Origin: Roseburia hominis
GTDB lineage: Bacteria > Bacillota > Clostridia > Lachnospirales > Lachnospiraceae
Direction of reading: 5' to 3'
DNA: 64,000 nucleotides
Assembly (NCBI GenBank): GCA_021771815.1
Contig: JAETOE010000012.1
Coordinates: 1 to 64,000, forward strand
Within the stretch, counting starts at the first letter, position 1. Each line of letters starts with the position of its first letter. A program made the position numbers and the translations under genes. Shown one piece after another: positions 2,203-52,867 of the stretch. Under the pieces are notes generated by a model that had not been told where the DNA came from, did not search any database, and worked only from the letters and a program-made list of their open reading frames with translations.

Positions 2203-3589
2203 ACGCATCCGCTCACTGAAATTCCGCATAAAGCTTCTGCTTCTGCTCGTTTTTTCTTTAGCAGTCAGCATCTTTGTGTGTTATTTTCTGATAATAAATA
2301 TCAATTCTGCCTGGCAGTCGGTTCAGAAGCTGCCCGGTTTTTTCCATTTTGACGAAGAGACATTTGTGAGCGAATTGCGCGGGCTGGCAGCAAACTACAG
2401 CGTTCCCGCATATGACAGTGGCAAGAATCATTCCGAACAGATGGAAGGCTTCTTCGCAACTGTGGACGACTATACGGGAGTCTATGTCTACGGCACCGAT
2501 GACGGACTGTACCGGGCAAGCTGTTATCCCAAGGTCTTCGATGTCCTTGGCAGCAACTCGCTCCTCGACTGGGGCACATCCATAACAGATATCTATAATC
2601 ACAATACGTACGAAAAACATAACTATGAGATTGTATTTCAAAATGGTATCTACGACGTCTACATTCAGAATTACCGCAACACGCTCTTCGTCTATCCCTA
2701 TCTCATTTTCTGTATGCTTTGCAGCGTTGCCCTGTTTCTCTTTATCGCCCTGGGATATATCGGCAGGCGGATGAAACAGATTCTCTGCTTAAAAGACGAA
2801 ATTCTTCTCATGGCAGGAGGCGATCTGTCACACCCCATTTCCCCCTGCGGCTTCGACGAAATCGGCACGCTTGCAGAAGAACTTGACCATCTGCGCACAT
2901 CATTTGCAGAAACGATTGCCATGGAAGAGGAAAGCCGTAATGCCAATCAGGATCTCATCACTGCTATGTCGCATGATCTGCGGACGCCGCTCACCATTTT
3001 AAAGGGATATCTTGAAATACTGAAATTAAAGAGAAATGATCCTGCCCTCGCGGAGGAATATCTCGACCGCTGCATGAGGAAAGCCGATGACATCCGCGAA
3101 ATGACAGATAAAATGTTTGAATACGCACTTGTATTTGAGGATAAAGAGGAGCCTGCCCTAAGCGATCTGCCGACTGGCATTGTGTTTTCCTGTCTGCGGG
3201 AAAACATGGACTTTCTCTCGCTCACCGGATTCACCATAGAATATACCCCGGATTTCACAGAATCATCTTCCGCAGAACTATTTTCTGTGGAATCCGGTAT
3301 TCTTCTCGCTGATGCGACAATGTTAAAGCGGATTTTTAACAATCTGTTCTCCAACATCCTAAAGTATGGGGATAAGGCAAAGCCTGTAACCGTCTCCTGC
3401 CGTCCGGTGAAGGGGGAAATTGGCATCTCGCTGCAAAATGCCATAAAATCCGACAGATCACAAATTGCAAGCAACAAGATCGGACTGCGCAGCACTGCCA
3501 AAATGGTCGAACTGCACCATGGAAGTTTTTCTTCCGCAAAAAAGGGAGACTCCTTTACGGTAGAAATTGTACTTCCGCTTAAGGCTTAG
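2195..3589 (+). CDS. Sensor histidine kinase, partner of the preceding regulator
   Basis: The gene starts at GTG 2195, inside the regulator gene, with AGGGG just upstream. Membrane segments lie at about 14-34 and 164-188 and enclose an external domain of about 130 residues. A HAMP-like region follows, then the phosphorylation helix with His260 in MSHDLRTPL. The ATPase domain has an N box (NNLFSNILKYG). The usual DxGxG G1 box is not recognisable; the region reads LQNAIKSDRSQIASNKIGLRS, with only the later G-L segment kept. Such reduced G1 boxes occur in some Firmicute kinases, so activity is still likely. The signal is unknown. Confidence 0.9.
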   Translation: MIKRIRSLKFRIKLLLLLVFSLAVSIFVCYFLIININSAWQSVQKLPGFFHFDEETFVSELRGLAANYSVPAYDSGKNHSEQMEGFFATVDDYTGVYVYGTDDGLYRASCYPKVFDVLGSNSLLDWGTSITDIYNHNTYEKHNYEIVFQNGIYDVYIQNYRNTLFVYPYLIFCMLCSVALFLFIALGYIGRRMKQILCLKDEILLMAGGDLSHPISPCGFDEIGTLAEELDHLRTSFAETIAMEEESRNANQDLITAMSHDLRTPLTILKGYLEILKLKRNDPALAEEYLDRCMRKADDIREMTDKMFEYALVFEDKEEPALSDLPTGIVFSCLRENMDFLSLTGFTIEYTPDFTESSSAELFSVESGILLADATMLKRIFNNLFSNILKYGDKAKPVTVSCRPVKGEIGISLQNAIKSDRSQIASNKIGLRSTAKMVELHHGSFSSAKKGDSFTVEIVLPLKA

Positions 3590-24400: not shown

Positions 24401-24886
24401 TTATTTTGAGATATGATATTTCTCGTATATTCTGTCAATAAATCTTGCCGGAACGAACTTTGTCAGATCACCGCCATAGGATGCAAATTCCTTGACGATT
24501 GTTGAGCTTAAATAAGAATACTGCAGACTGGTCGTCAGAAAAATCGTCTCGACGTCAGGATTCTCCACATGATTCGTCTGCGCAATCTGCAGCTCATATT
24601 CAAAGTCGGTCACAGCCCGAAGTCCCCTCACGATAATCGTCGCTTGAATCTCCTTCATGTAATCGACCAGCAGACCGTCAAAAGACGATACCGTGACGTT
24701 CGGCATAGAATCCGTCATCTCTTTTATCATACTAACACGTTCGTCCAGAGAAAACAATGAATTTTTTGCACTGTTATTGAGCACGCCGACTACCAATTCG
24801 TCCACGATTCTCGAGGAACGCTCGATAATATCCATATGTCCAAGCGTCAGCGGGTCAAAGCTTCCCGGATAAATTGCTCGTTTCAT
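24401..24886 (-). CDS. coaD: Phosphopantetheine adenylyltransferase
   Basis: The 161-residue product has the nucleotidyltransferase motifs [20 protein letters not shown] and [16 protein letters not shown]. It makes dephospho-CoA from 4'-phosphopantetheine and ATP. The start at 24886 is preceded five bases away by AGGAGG, which is the end of a dispersed repeat (24892-24969). The repeat fills the gap between rsmD and coaD. Confidence 0.96.
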
Positions 24887-24891
24887 AGAGT

Positions 24892-24969
24892 CCTCCTTGT
24901 TTTCCGAAGGAAAATGCGACTGCATATGCATGGAGCAATGCCCAGCAAGCTGTGCAGGATTTTCCTCCT
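24892..24969 (-). repeat. Dispersed RBS-carrying repeat, copy A (upstream of coaD)
   Basis: This 78-bp element, in minus orientation, runs from GGAGGAAAATCCTGC to CGGAAAACAAGGAGG. Its 3' end provides the coaD Shine-Dalgarno. Inner parts include TTTTCC/GGAAAA around a 3-base loop and an outer GGAAAAT/ATTTTCC pair. The core differs from copies B and D at a few bases (GCATATGC in place of GCCATTGC). Confidence 0.9.
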
Positions 24970-24998: not shown

Positions 24999-25550
24999 TC
25001 ATTCTCTTCGGATAAATGCGTGTTCGTTCGTCTTATAGGTTTTCAGCCGCACAAGCTTTAGTCCATACTCCGAAAGATACGAAAAATCCGTATCAAGCGC
25101 CGCTTCCACGATCATCAGCGTGTCCTCTTTCAACAGGGAAGACGCCGCAAGATAACGAAGCACTTCCTGCTCGATACCCTTCTTGTAGGGCGGATCCATA
25201 AAAATAATATCGAACTGGTACTTTCCCTCCATCGCGCGGAGCGCACTAAGCGCCTCCGTCGGATAGACCTTCGTCTCTTTTGTGAACTTCGTAAAACGGA
25301 TATTCTCCTCGATACAGGCGGCAGGCTTCTTGCCGCTGTCCACAAAGACCGCATAGCGCGCGCCGCGGCTTACCGCCTCAAGTCCGATCTGCCCGCTTCC
25401 CGCAAACAGATCGAGGAAATAGCTGCCCGGTATCTCATCCTGTATAATGTTAAACAATGTCTCCTTGATCCGGTCGGTGGTCGGTCTGGTGTCTAACCCC
25501 TCTACCGTCTTAAGTGGTAGGCTCCGCGCCGTTCCCGCTATGATCCGCAT
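24999..25550 (-). CDS. rsmD: 16S rRNA (guanine966-N2)-methyltransferase
   Basis: The 183-residue product begins MRIIAGTARSLPLKT and has TRPTTDRIKETLFNI, the SAM-binding LDLFAGSGQIGLEAVSRGA and catalytic DIIFMDPPYKKG. It methylates G966 of 16S rRNA. The start at 25550 uses the GGAGG of repeat copy B, and it overlaps the 3' end of pncC by 13 bp. In many Firmicutes rsmD follows recG; here recG is about 28 kb away. Confidence 0.95.
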   Translation of the reverse strand: MRIIAGTARSLPLKTVEGLDTRPTTDRIKETLFNIIQDEIPGSYFLDLFAGSGQIGLEAVSRGARYAVFVDSGKKPAACIEENIRFTKFTKETKVYPTEALSALRAMEGKYQFDIIFMDPPYKKGIEQEVLRYLAASSLLKEDTLMIVEAALDTDFSYLSEYGLKLVRLKTYKTNEHAFIRRE

Positions 25551-26140
25551 AATGAATCCTCCTTGTTTTCCGGAGGAAAATGCGACTGCCATTGCATGGA
25601 GCAATGCCCGGCAAGCCGTGCAGGATTTTCCTCCTTAAGCATTGTAATCAGCAGGCGAAGCGCCGCCTCGGTAGCAGCCTCCCGCCGCTCTCTCCGGCTG
25701 TTCTTCTCGAAGACATAACGCTCTGTCACCGTCTTCCCTTTCAGATAACAGCCGATATACATAAGTCCCACCGGACAATCTTTCGTTCCGCCATCCGGTC
25801 CGGCGACGCCTGTCACGGAGAGCGCCGCGTCGCACCCGGCAGTCCTGGCAGCGGACTTTGCCATATCGCAGGCAGTCTCGCTGCTCACCACCCCGTATTT
25901 TTCAATCGTCTTTGGATTTACATGAATCATTTTTACCTTCGCTGCATCCGAGTATGTGACGTAGCCCTCGGTAAAAAATTCGGAAATCCCAGGCACGTTG
26001 ACAAGCGTCGACGCGATCATCCCGCCTGTCGCAGATTCTGCGGTAGTCAGGGTATAACGGCGTTCCTTCAACAACTTATAAACAAGATATTCTAAGGATT
26101 CCTCCACCGGCTCTGTGCCAAAGCTTTTCTTTACTGACAT
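25538..26140 (-). CDS. pncC: CinA C-terminal-type NMN amidohydrolase with repeat-derived tail
   Basis: The 200-residue product is a stand-alone CinA C-terminal domain (LTTAESATGGMIASTLVNVP; YSDAAK; VTGVAGPDGGTKDCPVG). It deamidates nicotinamide mononucleotide in NAD recycling. The family normally ends near ALRLLITML. Here about 28 further residues (ENPARLAGHCSMQWQSHF and on) are encoded by repeat copy B, followed by a stop inside rsmD. The start at 26140 has AGGAAGGA seven bases upstream. The upstream MocR-like half of full CinA is absent. Confidence 0.9.
   Translation of the reverse strand: MSVKKSFGTEPVEESLEYLVYKLLKERRYTLTTAESATGGMIASTLVNVPGISEFFTEGYVTYSDAAKVKMIHVNPKTIEKYGVVSSETACDMAKSAARTAGCDAALSVTGVAGPDGGTKDCPVGLMYIGCYLKGKTVTERYVFEKNSRRERREAATEAALRLLITMLKEENPARLAGHCSMQWQSHFPPENKEDSLCGS
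25558..25636 (-). repeat. Dispersed RBS-carrying repeat, copy B (pncC tail and rsmD RBS)
   Basis: This 79-bp copy has CATTGC/GCAATG and TTTTCC/GGAAAA inverted repeats and GGAGG ends. It supplies the rsmD Shine-Dalgarno and at the same time encodes the last residues of PncC. A few differences from D (CCGGAGG, CCGGCAAGCC) partly keep the pairing. Confidence 0.9.
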
Positions 26141-32606: not shown

Positions 32607-34202
32607 TCACTCGTACTCCGACATCTTTACGACAACAATTCCGTCAATCATACAGATCGAGCCGTCATCCGGGTAGCACGGCATCTCCTTTACCTCTTTT
32701 TTCTGCATAAGCGCCTTTGTTTCCTCGTAACCGCAGAACTCCGGTGCAAAACCAAGATATTTTGTAATCAGGTGTGCCTTGGAGTAGGCGCTGACGTTCG
32801 AAGCATTTCGCCCGTCCTGCAAAACAATATCCTCAAGCAATCCTCCGAGATAGTTCGTCTCATCCTCCACCTCGCCATTTCCGATCAGAGCCACATGCAT
32901 CTCGTCCGTATATCCATCCAGACTCTTAATCTGTGTCACGATTGTCTCATAGTAGGCAAGATCATGGTACTTGGTGTATTCCTGCGACATATAGCTGGCG
33001 TTCGCGTACCAGATGTAAATCGCGATAATTGCCGCCGATGCGAAAAAAATCACCCACTGCATGCTCTTTTTTACACGCTCGTACCCACTCATGCAAATTA
33101 CAAAATGATCAACAAATATCAGAGGAAATACGAAAAAGAATACGACCGAATACAGCATGAGCGCATAAACCGCAGCCCCCGACGCCATAATATATATAAG
33201 AAATAATGCCGCCGGAAACAGCACGCCCGCGCAGACCATCAGAATTTTTCCGGGCGCACTCCGCTTCCCTCTCAAAAGAAAAATTACGATTCCGACCGCC
33301 AGTACGAGCCAGACCAATGTAAGACATTTCCGAAGCAGGCTTGTCGGCGTTAAATACTTTACATTTTCGGAAAACATCGCCCAAAATGACTGATAGCATA
33401 TTCCTACCGATGCAAGAAGCTTTCCCGGCGAAAGCTGTCCCATCGAGGCAATGCCCTGATAATCCATCATTGTGACATTCCAGCAGACAAGGAGCATCCG
33501 GTTCAGCAGGAAATAGAGGATAAGACCTCCGATCAGCACCGCAAGATAACGCAGTGCCGCAAAAAAGTTCTCCCGAAAAGAAGGATTTCCTTCACCAAAG
33601 GCGCAGGAAAGAATAAATGCCATCAAAAACAGACAGGCAGTGTTGGCAAAATAGGCCTGATATGTCCCAATCGAACATGCGAGCAGAAGAACCGCAGCGA
33701 TATGATACAAAAACTTCCCCGGGAAACGAACGACAAGATATGCCGCAAGCACGCTTAAGAAAATTCCTACCGAATAGAACGCCGCCGTGAACATGAAATA
33801 GAACATACACACGACCGCAGGAAATACCGTCATAAAAGCACCGATTAAGGCTGCAAGCGTCGGACTTTTAACCTGAAACATTCTGACAACAAGCGCTGCC
33901 GATGCTGCAAGCAGAAGAATCGATACGATACCATTCCACAGAGGAAACGAATAGCTTCCGCCAAGCCATCTTGAATTGCAGTCCGCCATAATCTTAAGGA
34001 ACCATCTGCCAAGCTCCGCGCCGATGCCATATCCGCCCGGCGTATTTACAAGCTCGTCATAGTTATAAAGCTTGTTCGTAAACATATAGAAATGTGCAGC
34101 CATACCGCAGACAAGAGCGCTGATAAATGCATAAAGCGCAGCGCGCGGCAGGCTTTTATATTTGTCTATAATGTAATGATCCGGTGTTTTTAACTCCACC
34201 AT
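32607..34202 (-). CDS. GtrII-type glucosyltransferase domain membrane protein
   Basis: The 531-residue product has about twelve helices and the Glucos_trans_II signature in loop 1 (NKLYNYDELVNTPGGYGIGAELGRWFLKI). Relatives transfer glucose from a lipid carrier onto surface polysaccharides. The start at 34202 lies ten bases after AAGGAGG, the end of repeat copy C. Its promoter (34305-34332) is upstream of the repeat, so the repeat is in the 5' UTR. It is divergent from an XRE regulator with an overlapping promoter. Confidence 0.75.
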   Translation of the reverse strand: MVELKTPDHYIIDKYKSLPRAALYAFISALVCGMAAHFYMFTNKLYNYDELVNTPGGYGIGAELGRWFLKIMADCNSRWLGGSYSFPLWNGIVSILLLAASAALVVRMFQVKSPTLAALIGAFMTVFPAVVCMFYFMFTAAFYSVGIFLSVLAAYLVVRFPGKFLYHIAAVLLLACSIGTYQAYFANTACLFLMAFILSCAFGEGNPSFRENFFAALRYLAVLIGGLILYFLLNRMLLVCWNVTMMDYQGIASMGQLSPGKLLASVGICYQSFWAMFSENVKYLTPTSLLRKCLTLVWLVLAVGIVIFLLRGKRSAPGKILMVCAGVLFPAALFLIYIMASGAAVYALMLYSVVFFFVFPLIFVDHFVICMSGYERVKKSMQWVIFFASAAIIAIYIWYANASYMSQEYTKYHDLAYYETIVTQIKSLDGYTDEMHVALIGNGEVEDETNYLGGLLEDIVLQDGRNASNVSAYSKAHLITKYLGFAPEFCGYEETKALMQKKEVKEMPCYPDDGSICMIDGIVVVKMSEYE

Positions 34203-34212
34203 TTGAATTCAT

Positions 34213-34272
34213 CCTCCTTGTTTTCCGAAGGAAAATGCGACTGCCTTTGCAGGCGCAGAGGATTTTCCTCCT
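34213..34272 (-). repeat. Dispersed RBS-carrying repeat, copy C (shorter)
   Basis: This 60-bp copy has both conserved ends but lacks most of the central CATTGC...GCAATG hairpin. Its GGAGG end serves the GtrII-like gene. The loss of the centre alone suggests that the ends are the constrained part. Confidence 0.85.
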
Positions 34273-45984: not shown

Positions 45985-46011
45985 AGAAAACAAGGAGGAA
46001 AACAAGGAGGA
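45985..46011 (+). repeat. Remnant of the dispersed RBS repeat
   Basis: GGAGGAAAACAAGGAGGA here matches the outer end of repeat copy D exactly (18 bp) and provides the Shine-Dalgarno of the ABC ATPase. The rest of the element is absent, so common origin is likely but not certain. Confidence 0.45.
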
Positions 46012-51634: not shown

Positions 51635-52771
51635 CTACGCCTCGATCAGTCCTGCTCTGCGCATCTCCGTGTAAGCGAGCAGGAACGGGCCGACGCCCTT
51701 TGCATCGTCCTTTACGACCGGCTCTGACATATAATAGTCGTAGGTTCCCGGACGCATCTGCTTGCCGCCTAACCCTGCGACCAGACAGATACCGTCCAGA
51801 TGCAGGCTGCCGTCCGCGTCCTCCGACAAATATTTCTCACAGATGCCGTGAAATGTCTTCGCTCCATACGCCTGATAGCTCTCCGGCAAAAAGCCGAGCC
51901 TTACGCCCTTAAGAAGCGCATACGCCATAATGGAGCTTCCGCTCGTCTCAAGATAGTTCTTCTCCATACCGCCGAAGTTCACGACCTGATACCACATACC
52001 GCTCTCATCCTGATACTTAAGCATGGAATCCATCAGTTCCGTAAAAATCCGCTTCATCCGCTCGTAGGGTTTGGTCCCGGACGCATCCATCTTGTCGAGC
52101 GTATCGAGAAGCGCCATCGAGAACCAGCCCAGCGCACGCAGCCAGAAATTCTGGCTTAAGCCCGTGACCTTATCGCACCAGAACATTTCTCTTGACGAAT
52201 CGTAGGCATGGTAATAAAGCCCGGTCTTGGGGTCGCGCATATGCTCTTCCACGTTGAAAAACTGATTGAAAATATCGTCATAATTCTTCTTATCATGAAA
52301 ACGCGTCTCGTATTCCATATAAAACGGCTGACACATGTAAAGTCCGTCCAGCCATACCTGATTCGGGTAGATATTCTTGTGCCAGAAATTGCCCTCCTTC
52401 GTCCGCGGCATCTGTCCGATCTGACTGTATACAAGATCAATCGCTTTGCGGTACTTTTCCTTTCCGGTCAGATCGTAAAGCTCGAACAGGGTCTTTCCTG
52501 CATTTACATTGTCAATGTTGAGCTCCTCCACCGAATAACCCTCGATCGAACCGTCCTCATGCACCTTCGCATCGATAAATGCGTCCGCAAATTTAAAATA
52601 TTTCTCGTCCTTGGTGATGGCGTACATCTCAAGCACTGCCTTAATCATACAGCCGTCGATGTAATTCCATGTCGATTTTTGACCCTGCAAGATCTTCTCA
52701 ATGTTCCAGATTGGGCGATCCGGCGTGCTCTTTGCCAAAAGCCCGTCAATATACTGCTCGATTTTGTCCAT
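51635..52771 (-). CDS. GH105 unsaturated rhamnogalacturonyl hydrolase
   Basis: The 378-residue, cytosolic (no signal) product has an alpha/alpha barrel like YteR/YesR, with catalytic Asp142 in NQVWLDGLYMCQPF and TGKEKYRKAID. It releases unsaturated galacturonic acid from pectin oligosaccharides made by lyases. The start at 52771 is six bases after the AGGAGG of repeat copy D. Its promoter (52892-52921) is upstream of the repeat, so the repeat is in the 5' UTR. It fits with the GH28 at the right end. Confidence 0.93.
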   Translation of the reverse strand: MDKIEQYIDGLLAKSTPDRPIWNIEKILQGQKSTWNYIDGCMIKAVLEMYAITKDEKYFKFADAFIDAKVHEDGSIEGYSVEELNIDNVNAGKTLFELYDLTGKEKYRKAIDLVYSQIGQMPRTKEGNFWHKNIYPNQVWLDGLYMCQPFYMEYETRFHDKKNYDDIFNQFFNVEEHMRDPKTGLYYHAYDSSREMFWCDKVTGLSQNFWLRALGWFSMALLDTLDKMDASGTKPYERMKRIFTELMDSMLKYQDESGMWYQVVNFGGMEKNYLETSGSSIMAYALLKGVRLGFLPESYQAYGAKTFHGICEKYLSEDADGSLHLDGICLVAGLGGKQMRPGTYDYYMSEPVVKDDAKGVGPFLLAYTEMRRAGLIEA

Positions 52772-52777
52772 GATAAT

Positions 52778-52867
52778 CCTCCTTGTTTTCCGAAGGAAAA
52801 TGCGACTGCCATTGCATGGAGCAATGCCCAGCAAGCTGTGCAGGATTTTCCTCCTTGTTTTCCTCCT
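52778..52867 (-). repeat. Dispersed RBS-carrying repeat, copy D (5' UTR of GH105)
   Basis: The 79-bp element is almost identical to copies A and B, plus an 11-bp extension that repeats GTTTTCCTCCT at its outer end. It contains CATTGC/GCAATG and TTTTCC/GGAAAA inverted repeats. Confidence 0.9.

Follow-up and report, generated by a model that had tools for sequence, protein, structure and literature searches.

The window analyzed here, a stretch of 64,000 nucleotides (64 kb), carries on its minus strand four copies of a short repeat, each followed by a protein-coding gene in the same orientation. Copies A, B and D are long forms of the repeat and copy C is a short form. Each ends in a Shine-Dalgarno sequence (SD), just behind a hairpin that we call P3. 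The features are, by position:

24401..24886 (-), coaD-like gene downstream of copy A; product of 161 aa with PF01467
24892..24969 (-), copy A, long form, in the coaD leader; SD GGAGG at 24892-24896, P3 hairpin at 24899-24915
24999..25550 (-), rsmD-like gene downstream of copy B; product of 183 aa with PF03602
25558..25636 (-), copy B, long form, in the rsmD leader; SD at 25558-25562, P3 hairpin at 25565-25581
32607..34202 (-), gene for a GtrII-like glucosyl transferase downstream of copy C; product of 531 aa with PF14264
34213..34272 (-), copy C, short form; SD at 34213-34217, P3 hairpin at 34220-34236
45985..46010 (+), SD 12-mer GGAAAACAAGGA, present twice without the folded core, before the start codon of an ABC ATPase
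51635..52771 (-), GH88/GH105-type gene downstream of copy D; product of 378 aa with PF07470
52778..52856 (-), copy D, long form, a 79-nt element; SD at 52778-52782, P3 hairpin at 52785-52801
52857..52867 (-), 11-nt adduct on the 5' side of copy D, in which the SD stretch is doubled (GGAGGAAAACAA repeat)

All four copies lie on the minus strand where the original prediction had placed them, and their shared ends occur far above chance. At two or fewer mismatches GGAAAACAAGGAGG matched eight places in the window against 0.55 expected, and none of 100 shuffles reached eight; it is exact in all four copies and in two further places, and AGGAGGAAAATCC is exact in all four. The span 52778-52867 first given for copy D holds as an element up to 52856 only, its last 11 nt being the doubled SD stretch; a similar adduct occurs at G000:C34:155955. 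The doubled 12-mer at 45985-46010 may be a remnant of an element or the seed of one. Behind GGAG, the start codon follows after 6 nt in coaD, 8 nt in rsmD, 11 nt in the GtrII-like gene and 7 nt in the GH105-like gene.

Copy C comprises a 5' GGAGG, an anti-SD AATCCTC, a variable arm (P2), the P3 hairpin and the SD, and it scores 82.6 bits with a covariance model of the family. It had been described as a copy that lost only its centre. This description is probably backwards, because short forms, with an arm of at most 36 nt from anti-SD to hairpin, make up the majority (114 of 178 distinct elements), and A, B and D are the long forms.

A dispersed family tied to start codons

Searches of the whole genome that holds the window (3.74 Mb, 85 contigs) gave about 31 copies at 25 sites, which bears out the proposal of a dispersed, multi-copy non-coding family and extends it well beyond four members. 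A 24-base pattern covering the 3' hairpin and SD, allowing up to two mismatches, matched 31 places, against none for the reversed pattern. The covariance model R1, built from 89 short elements, found 30 places at E ≤0.0135 and three weaker ones, and a BLAST-type search with copy B returned 44 matching pieces.

Beyond this genome, the distribution is one of patchy presence with high copy number. The 24-base pattern is present in 7 of 35 other genus members, with 26 copies in G021, 22 in G033, 11 in G027, 8 in G034 (which we take to be R. hominis A2-183), 7 in G020, 2 in G006 and 1 in G004, and in none of 24 genomes from other families of the order. The exact pattern occurs in 9 of 298 other genomes of the family, the bearers coming nearly all from different genera, and R1 under strict filters matched 5 of 294 other genomes of the order. 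In public genomes, the exact pattern was found in at least 111 stretches, nearly all from Lachnospiraceae; among the matches listed were Roseburia, Eisenbergiella, Parablautia, Eubacterium, unnamed Lachnospiraceae and a few stray titles. Matching phage records are unverified scaffolds from faecal samples and tell us little.

The family is closely bound to SD sites. Searched for without its SD, the hairpin pattern abutted GGAG at 72 of 73 places in four genomes (29/29 in the window's own genome, 8/8 in G034, 19/19 in G033 and 16/17 in G351); the single G351 exception sits inside other sequence and looks like a chance match. We then used all loci in hand, counted a start codon if it opened a frame of at least 60 codons, and kept out 41 internal tandem copies that have another copy behind them. 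On this basis a start codon lies 3-13 nt past GGAG in 182 of 193 gene-proximal copies (mode 6-7 nt, most 6-9 nt), against 288 of 871 control AAGGAG sites at the same loci away from elements. Copies thus precede start codons beyond expectation, and, as originally proposed, they lie in gene orientation and supply the SD of unrelated genes from their 3' end. For 178 genes, we measured the distance from the end of the upstream same-strand frame to P3: it was at most 150 nt for 81 and 150-300 nt for 35, with no such frame within 300 nt for 55 and a contig end too near for 7. Copies are found both inside operons and at operon starts, which favours an action on translation rather than on transcription.

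A Pfam scan of 146 of the 178 downstream proteins gave 165 families at E ≤1e-5, the commonest of them in four proteins; a regulon was rejected, as no functional theme emerged among the proteins scanned. The genes behind copies include coaD, rsmD, dnaB, purM, metK and pgk, and since essential genes are among them, the SD of the element must work. Among the 178 proteins, 13 groups of orthologues carry a copy in more than one genome, including FlxA-like proteins (five genomes), pgk (three), TrkA (three) and a MATE transporter, so some sites are old or were hit repeatedly. At one metK locus (L078), two tandem copies at 3065-3141 (-) lie before the gene and are themselves closely preceded, at 3299-3410 (-), by a SAM riboswitch (RF00162, E 4.5e-14), placing two leader controls in series.

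Anatomy and covariation of a three-helix fold

The elements are short and non-coding, about 55-105 nt long. Read in gene sense, the 5' half runs [AAGGAGG] - x - AAATCCTC - TGC-TC-(apical hairpin)-TC-GCA, and the 3' half continues after GCA as TTTTCC TTC GGAAAA - C - AAGGAGG - ATT.. - ATG. We take the unit to span AAATCCTC to AAGGAGG, between a 5' SD-like GGAGG and the start-codon spacer, a provisional boundary, with the ends of helix P1 as the alternative. Tandem arrays have a period of 49-55 nt, adjacent units sharing one AAGGAGG. One R. hominis array (L052:1341-1523, G034:C1:1237652-1237834) consists of four tandem 53-nt units; its three upstream units end in GGAGT, and GGAGG is found only in the gene-proximal unit. 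A viral contig with three tandem copies (L337) was considered as a copy-number variant of this array and rejected, its best match being another locus (L118).

In long forms, A, B and D among them, P2 is larger and contains additional hairpins. Nine long copies that precede unrelated genes, eight in the window's own genome and one elsewhere, have a core that is almost the same throughout most of its length. The additional P2 hairpins GCCATGC/GCATGGC and AACTCTGC/GCAGAGTT recur across genomes (for example in L009, L012, L044, L149 and L153), as if P2 arms were exchanged as modules. At two loci from two species (L004 and L039), gene and upstream flank are alike and the core is long in one and short in the other, so that either the core was exchanged or the SD was hit by a second insertion.

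Given no structure, RNAalifold folded the 89 short elements into three helices: P1 (columns 12-18/59-65), in which the anti-SD AATCCTC pairs with GAGGATT, made up of the SD and the adjoining spacer; P2; and P3, TTTTSC-TYC-GSAAAA. Our search patterns and row selection had fixed most of P3, CTCT and GGAG, and the columns free to vary were 11-14 with 63-66, most of P2, and 45 with 51. Counted on this structure, pairing holds in 97.1% of cells, against 84.2% after shuffling and 37.4-54.7% after a slide of 1-3 columns. Changes on both sides of a pair affected 214 cells (77.5 in shuffles), and the covariation score was 0.299 (0.076 in shuffles). Two of the five covariation measures do not stand out, namely the number of pairs with changes on both sides (8 against 6.2, reached by 30 of 500 shuffles) and that of further pair types (19 against 17.9, reached by 156 of 500). 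With arm lengths left free, the arms of P3 are equally long (3/3, 4/4 or 5/5) in 238 of 239 distinct hairpins, and the variable pair of these 239 is C-G, G-C, T-A or A-T, except for five G-T/T-G pairs and three mismatches.

We further examined P1 copy by copy in 166 gene-proximal copies with a recognisable anti-SD; 27 others, mostly long forms, were left out, and A, B and D, in which P1 is shorter, lie outside these counts. Beyond the seeded CTC/GAG, at least three further pairs form in 150 of the 166, and the summed further pairs reach 578, the largest of 2000 shuffles being 504. Where the anti-SD is non-standard (not.ATCCTC; 35 copies), 27 fit the flank of their own SD and four fit the standard GATT. 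Misfits between anti-SD and flank number 8 of 35 non-standard and 8 of 131 standard copies, and in some of the eight non-standard misfits the anti-SD is probably misplaced. Variant pairs stand beside standard ones in G351 (AAGTCTC/GAGACTT, AATTCTC/GAGAATT and AAGCCTC/GAGGCTT); R. inulinivorans has CGCCCTC/GAGGGCA, and a distant copy found by the model (L344) has TCACCTC/GAGGTGA. Of all the evidence for selection on the pairing of the SD itself, this copy-level compensation is the strongest.

Compensatory changes are thus strong in P1, P2 and P3, in keeping with the conserved pairing expected of the family. One of the pairings first listed, an outer GGAAAAT/ATTTTCC, must be dropped: within the 89 aligned short elements, all 47 with G at the variable P3 position have no matching 5' sequence. 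The outer helix that does covary is AATCCTC/GAGGATT, which was missing from that list.

The anti-SD has a second potential partner, as the 5' GGAGG can pair with it (P0) through at least four pairs in 76 of 89 elements. When the 5' GGAGG was included, the predicted mean probability was 0.07 for P1 and 0.44 for P0; when the 5' stretch was omitted, the SD was unpaired at a mean probability of 0.12. GGAG was predicted to be unpaired at a mean of 0.29 in 181 elements, compared with 0.47 for 180 ordinary SDs from the same loci, so that the ribosome binding site, earlier called strong, appears less open than ordinary ones. The value was still 0.38 after the 70 upstream bases were shuffled, and SD closure is therefore partly a matter of composition. 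Single-sequence folding energies were unremarkable (z from -2.1 to +0.6 for eight leaders). Because P1 is rarely dominant, P0 is common and the SD is less open, the predicted thermodynamics describe an SD with several modes of closure rather than a single stable P1. Prediction and covariation together suggest that the SD is partly hidden.

Gain of copies at SD sites

We compared eleven sites with their counterparts in R. hominis, using orthologues that were at least 80% identical and aligned at their start, and excluding less similar or misaligned ones. The sites belong to rsmD, coaD, GH105, a peptide-binding protein, purM, dnaB, a glnB-like gene, ybeY, a sugar permease, a small protein (L026) and argR. 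Ten of the eleven are empty in R. hominis and have an ordinary purine-rich SD, including those of coaD (orthologue 92.5% identical), GH105 (92%) and rsmD (87%); in the eleventh, the peptide-binding protein, the R. hominis gene has a copy at the equivalent place with a different core. Since ten of these close sites are empty, the elements have spread. Comparison across genomes shows a family with a common fold, a location tied to SD sites and a lineage-specific gain of copies. Most copies are flanked by AAGGAGG at either end, and the R. hominis sites are too diverged to prove a target duplication. Two Lachnospira eligens plasmids both bear the examined copy, flanked by identical protein accessions, and could derive from one strain.

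Y1 transposases (PF01797) number three in the window's own genome, seven each in G034 and G033, one in G027 and two in G021. PF01797 was absent from G351 (97% complete, 17 hairpin matches), G100 (96% complete, ten exact pattern matches) and the incomplete G020. In the window's own genome, the ends of the three Y1 genes are unrelated to the element, and a search beside copies, for Y1 only, found no mobilising enzyme. The PF01797 counts in this and seven other bearing genomes give no support to a REP/RAYT origin, which we rejected. The suggestion that the family is REP-like finds no support either, with two bearing genomes free of Y1 transposases and no REP tetranucleotide, nor does that of a MITE-like family in the strict sense, as no terminal inverted repeats were seen and no target duplication is proven.

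Readings of the element and known systems

We consider it fairly probable that the elements are mobile, occupy SD sites and, as RNA, partly mask the SD and tune translation, the tuning being what we infer. A unit would land at an SD site with an SD of its own as its 3' end; because the copy supplies that SD, the downstream gene, in many cases an essential one, would stay translatable. In the mRNA, the SD would be partly hidden in P1. Alternatively, the 5' GGAGG would act as an anti-anti-SD and take up the anti-SD in P0, and the SD would then be hidden by the CTYC of P3; the P0-linked and P1 folds would be mutually exclusive. The net effect would be a tunable local brake on initiation, independent of gene or promoter. 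In a bolder version, which we hold only tentatively, the element would be a transposable translational switch: its target would be the ribosome-binding site in its own right, and it would swap the SD of any gene for a bistable one of its own. If it were true, initiation rates would be rewired gene by gene with no transcription factor or regulon, and compensatory evolution would maintain the switch after each landing.

The same fold could instead act at the DNA level, as a single strand on which a mobilising enzyme works (HUH/Y1-like, integrase-like or of another kind); the anti-SD would be a guide that pairs with GGAG, the SD a target site only, and translation would be left untouched. The elements do look mobile, and insertion after AAGGAGG of a unit ending in AAGGAGG explains the 49-55 nt arrays; moreover, the "guide" matches both the 5' and the 3' GGAGG, and P3 covaries in the manner of a recognition hairpin. 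However, G351 and G100 have no Y1_Tnp, the ends of the own genome's Y1 genes are unrelated and the Y1 search found no enzyme next to copies. The pairing also reaches into the start-codon spacer, and in at least two of the tandem copies farther upstream GGAGG has lost its final G, which the gene-proximal copy keeps (L052 and L134). We regard this account as unlikely. An old cis-regulatory RNA class sensing a ligand, a protein or temperature, with a real regulon inherited through many losses, seems to us quite improbable: the downstream genes share no theme (165 Pfam families among 146 proteins), presence is patchy (7/35 genus and 9/298 family members), and near-identical long cores before unrelated genes in one genome, like the ten empty sites of eleven, indicate recent spread. 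Its conserved three-helix form and the 13 orthologue groups with copies in more than one genome are what such a class would explain. Slippage of the SD stretch alone, with repeated GGAAAACAAGGA units forming hairpins by chance, is hardly credible; it accounts for the doubled 12-mers seen in copy D, at 45985-46010 and at C34:155955, but it can produce neither P2, P3 and their covariation nor one core before unrelated genes.

Bacterial small repeats are usually treated as intergenic litter, and here a family is bound to one functional site, the SD. A mobile element that tunes translation would show mobile DNA spreading ready-made translation control. The copies also offer natural replicate insertions before many genes, some essential, in common human gut bacteria, and they pose the question of whether the fold sets expression or serves movement only.

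Rfam gave no match across the whole window, nor at the elements in four element-bearing loci (E ≤5). It had been proposed that the family may be undescribed, and we found no description in the literature searched, outside which most subscription papers lie. As far as the available text of a 3161-candidate microbiome survey goes (PMC8040213), the family could be among its models. MITEs resemble the elements in being non-coding, multi-copy, dispersed and recently moved; their terminal inverted repeats are absent from a unit with the ends AAATCC... and ...AAGGAGG and present if the ends are those of P1, AATCCTC/GAGGATT.

SD-sequestering leaders (translational riboswitches, RNA thermometers and ribosomal protein leaders) combine an anti-SD helix with a competing helix. 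They are part of defined regulons and are not known to spread by transposition. The elements share with them an anti-SD helix over the SD and a competing alternative helix, and the conserved, covarying anti-SD/SD pairing would place them in this class; unlike such leaders, they have no regulon, are spread in the genome and have no Rfam match. Non-autonomous derivatives of IS200/IS605 have two hairpins and a short guide matched to a fixed tetra- or pentanucleotide in the flank, and they are not known to cause target duplication. Two hairpins and a guide-like match to the flank are found in our elements too, whereas the own genome's Y1 elements have no related end and G351 and G100 have no Y1.

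REPs and REPINs also form many short palindromic intergenic copies, often in small arrays, and begin with GTAG or GTGG and adjoin rayt genes, according to the available text of their description (PMC3686654). The aligned copies here differ in their GGAGG and AAGGAGG ends, their location at SDs and their presence in two genomes without Y1. In kind, the family comes closest to the BOX-type small repeats. The available text on BOX, RUP and SPRITE of S. pneumoniae describes small interspersed non-coding sequences which, like the present elements, are modular, fold as RNA and encode no enzyme, with tandem inner units and, in some cases, fusion to a riboswitch leader (BOX with T box). The same text reports all three as over-represented between convergent genes, and BOX and RUP as having terminal inverted repeats with target duplication (PMC3049150). 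Set apart by description rather than by sequence comparison, the present elements belong to Lachnospiraceae and have no boxA-boxB-boxC modules; unlike BOX, RUP and SPRITE, they are tied to SD sites and carry the SD within.
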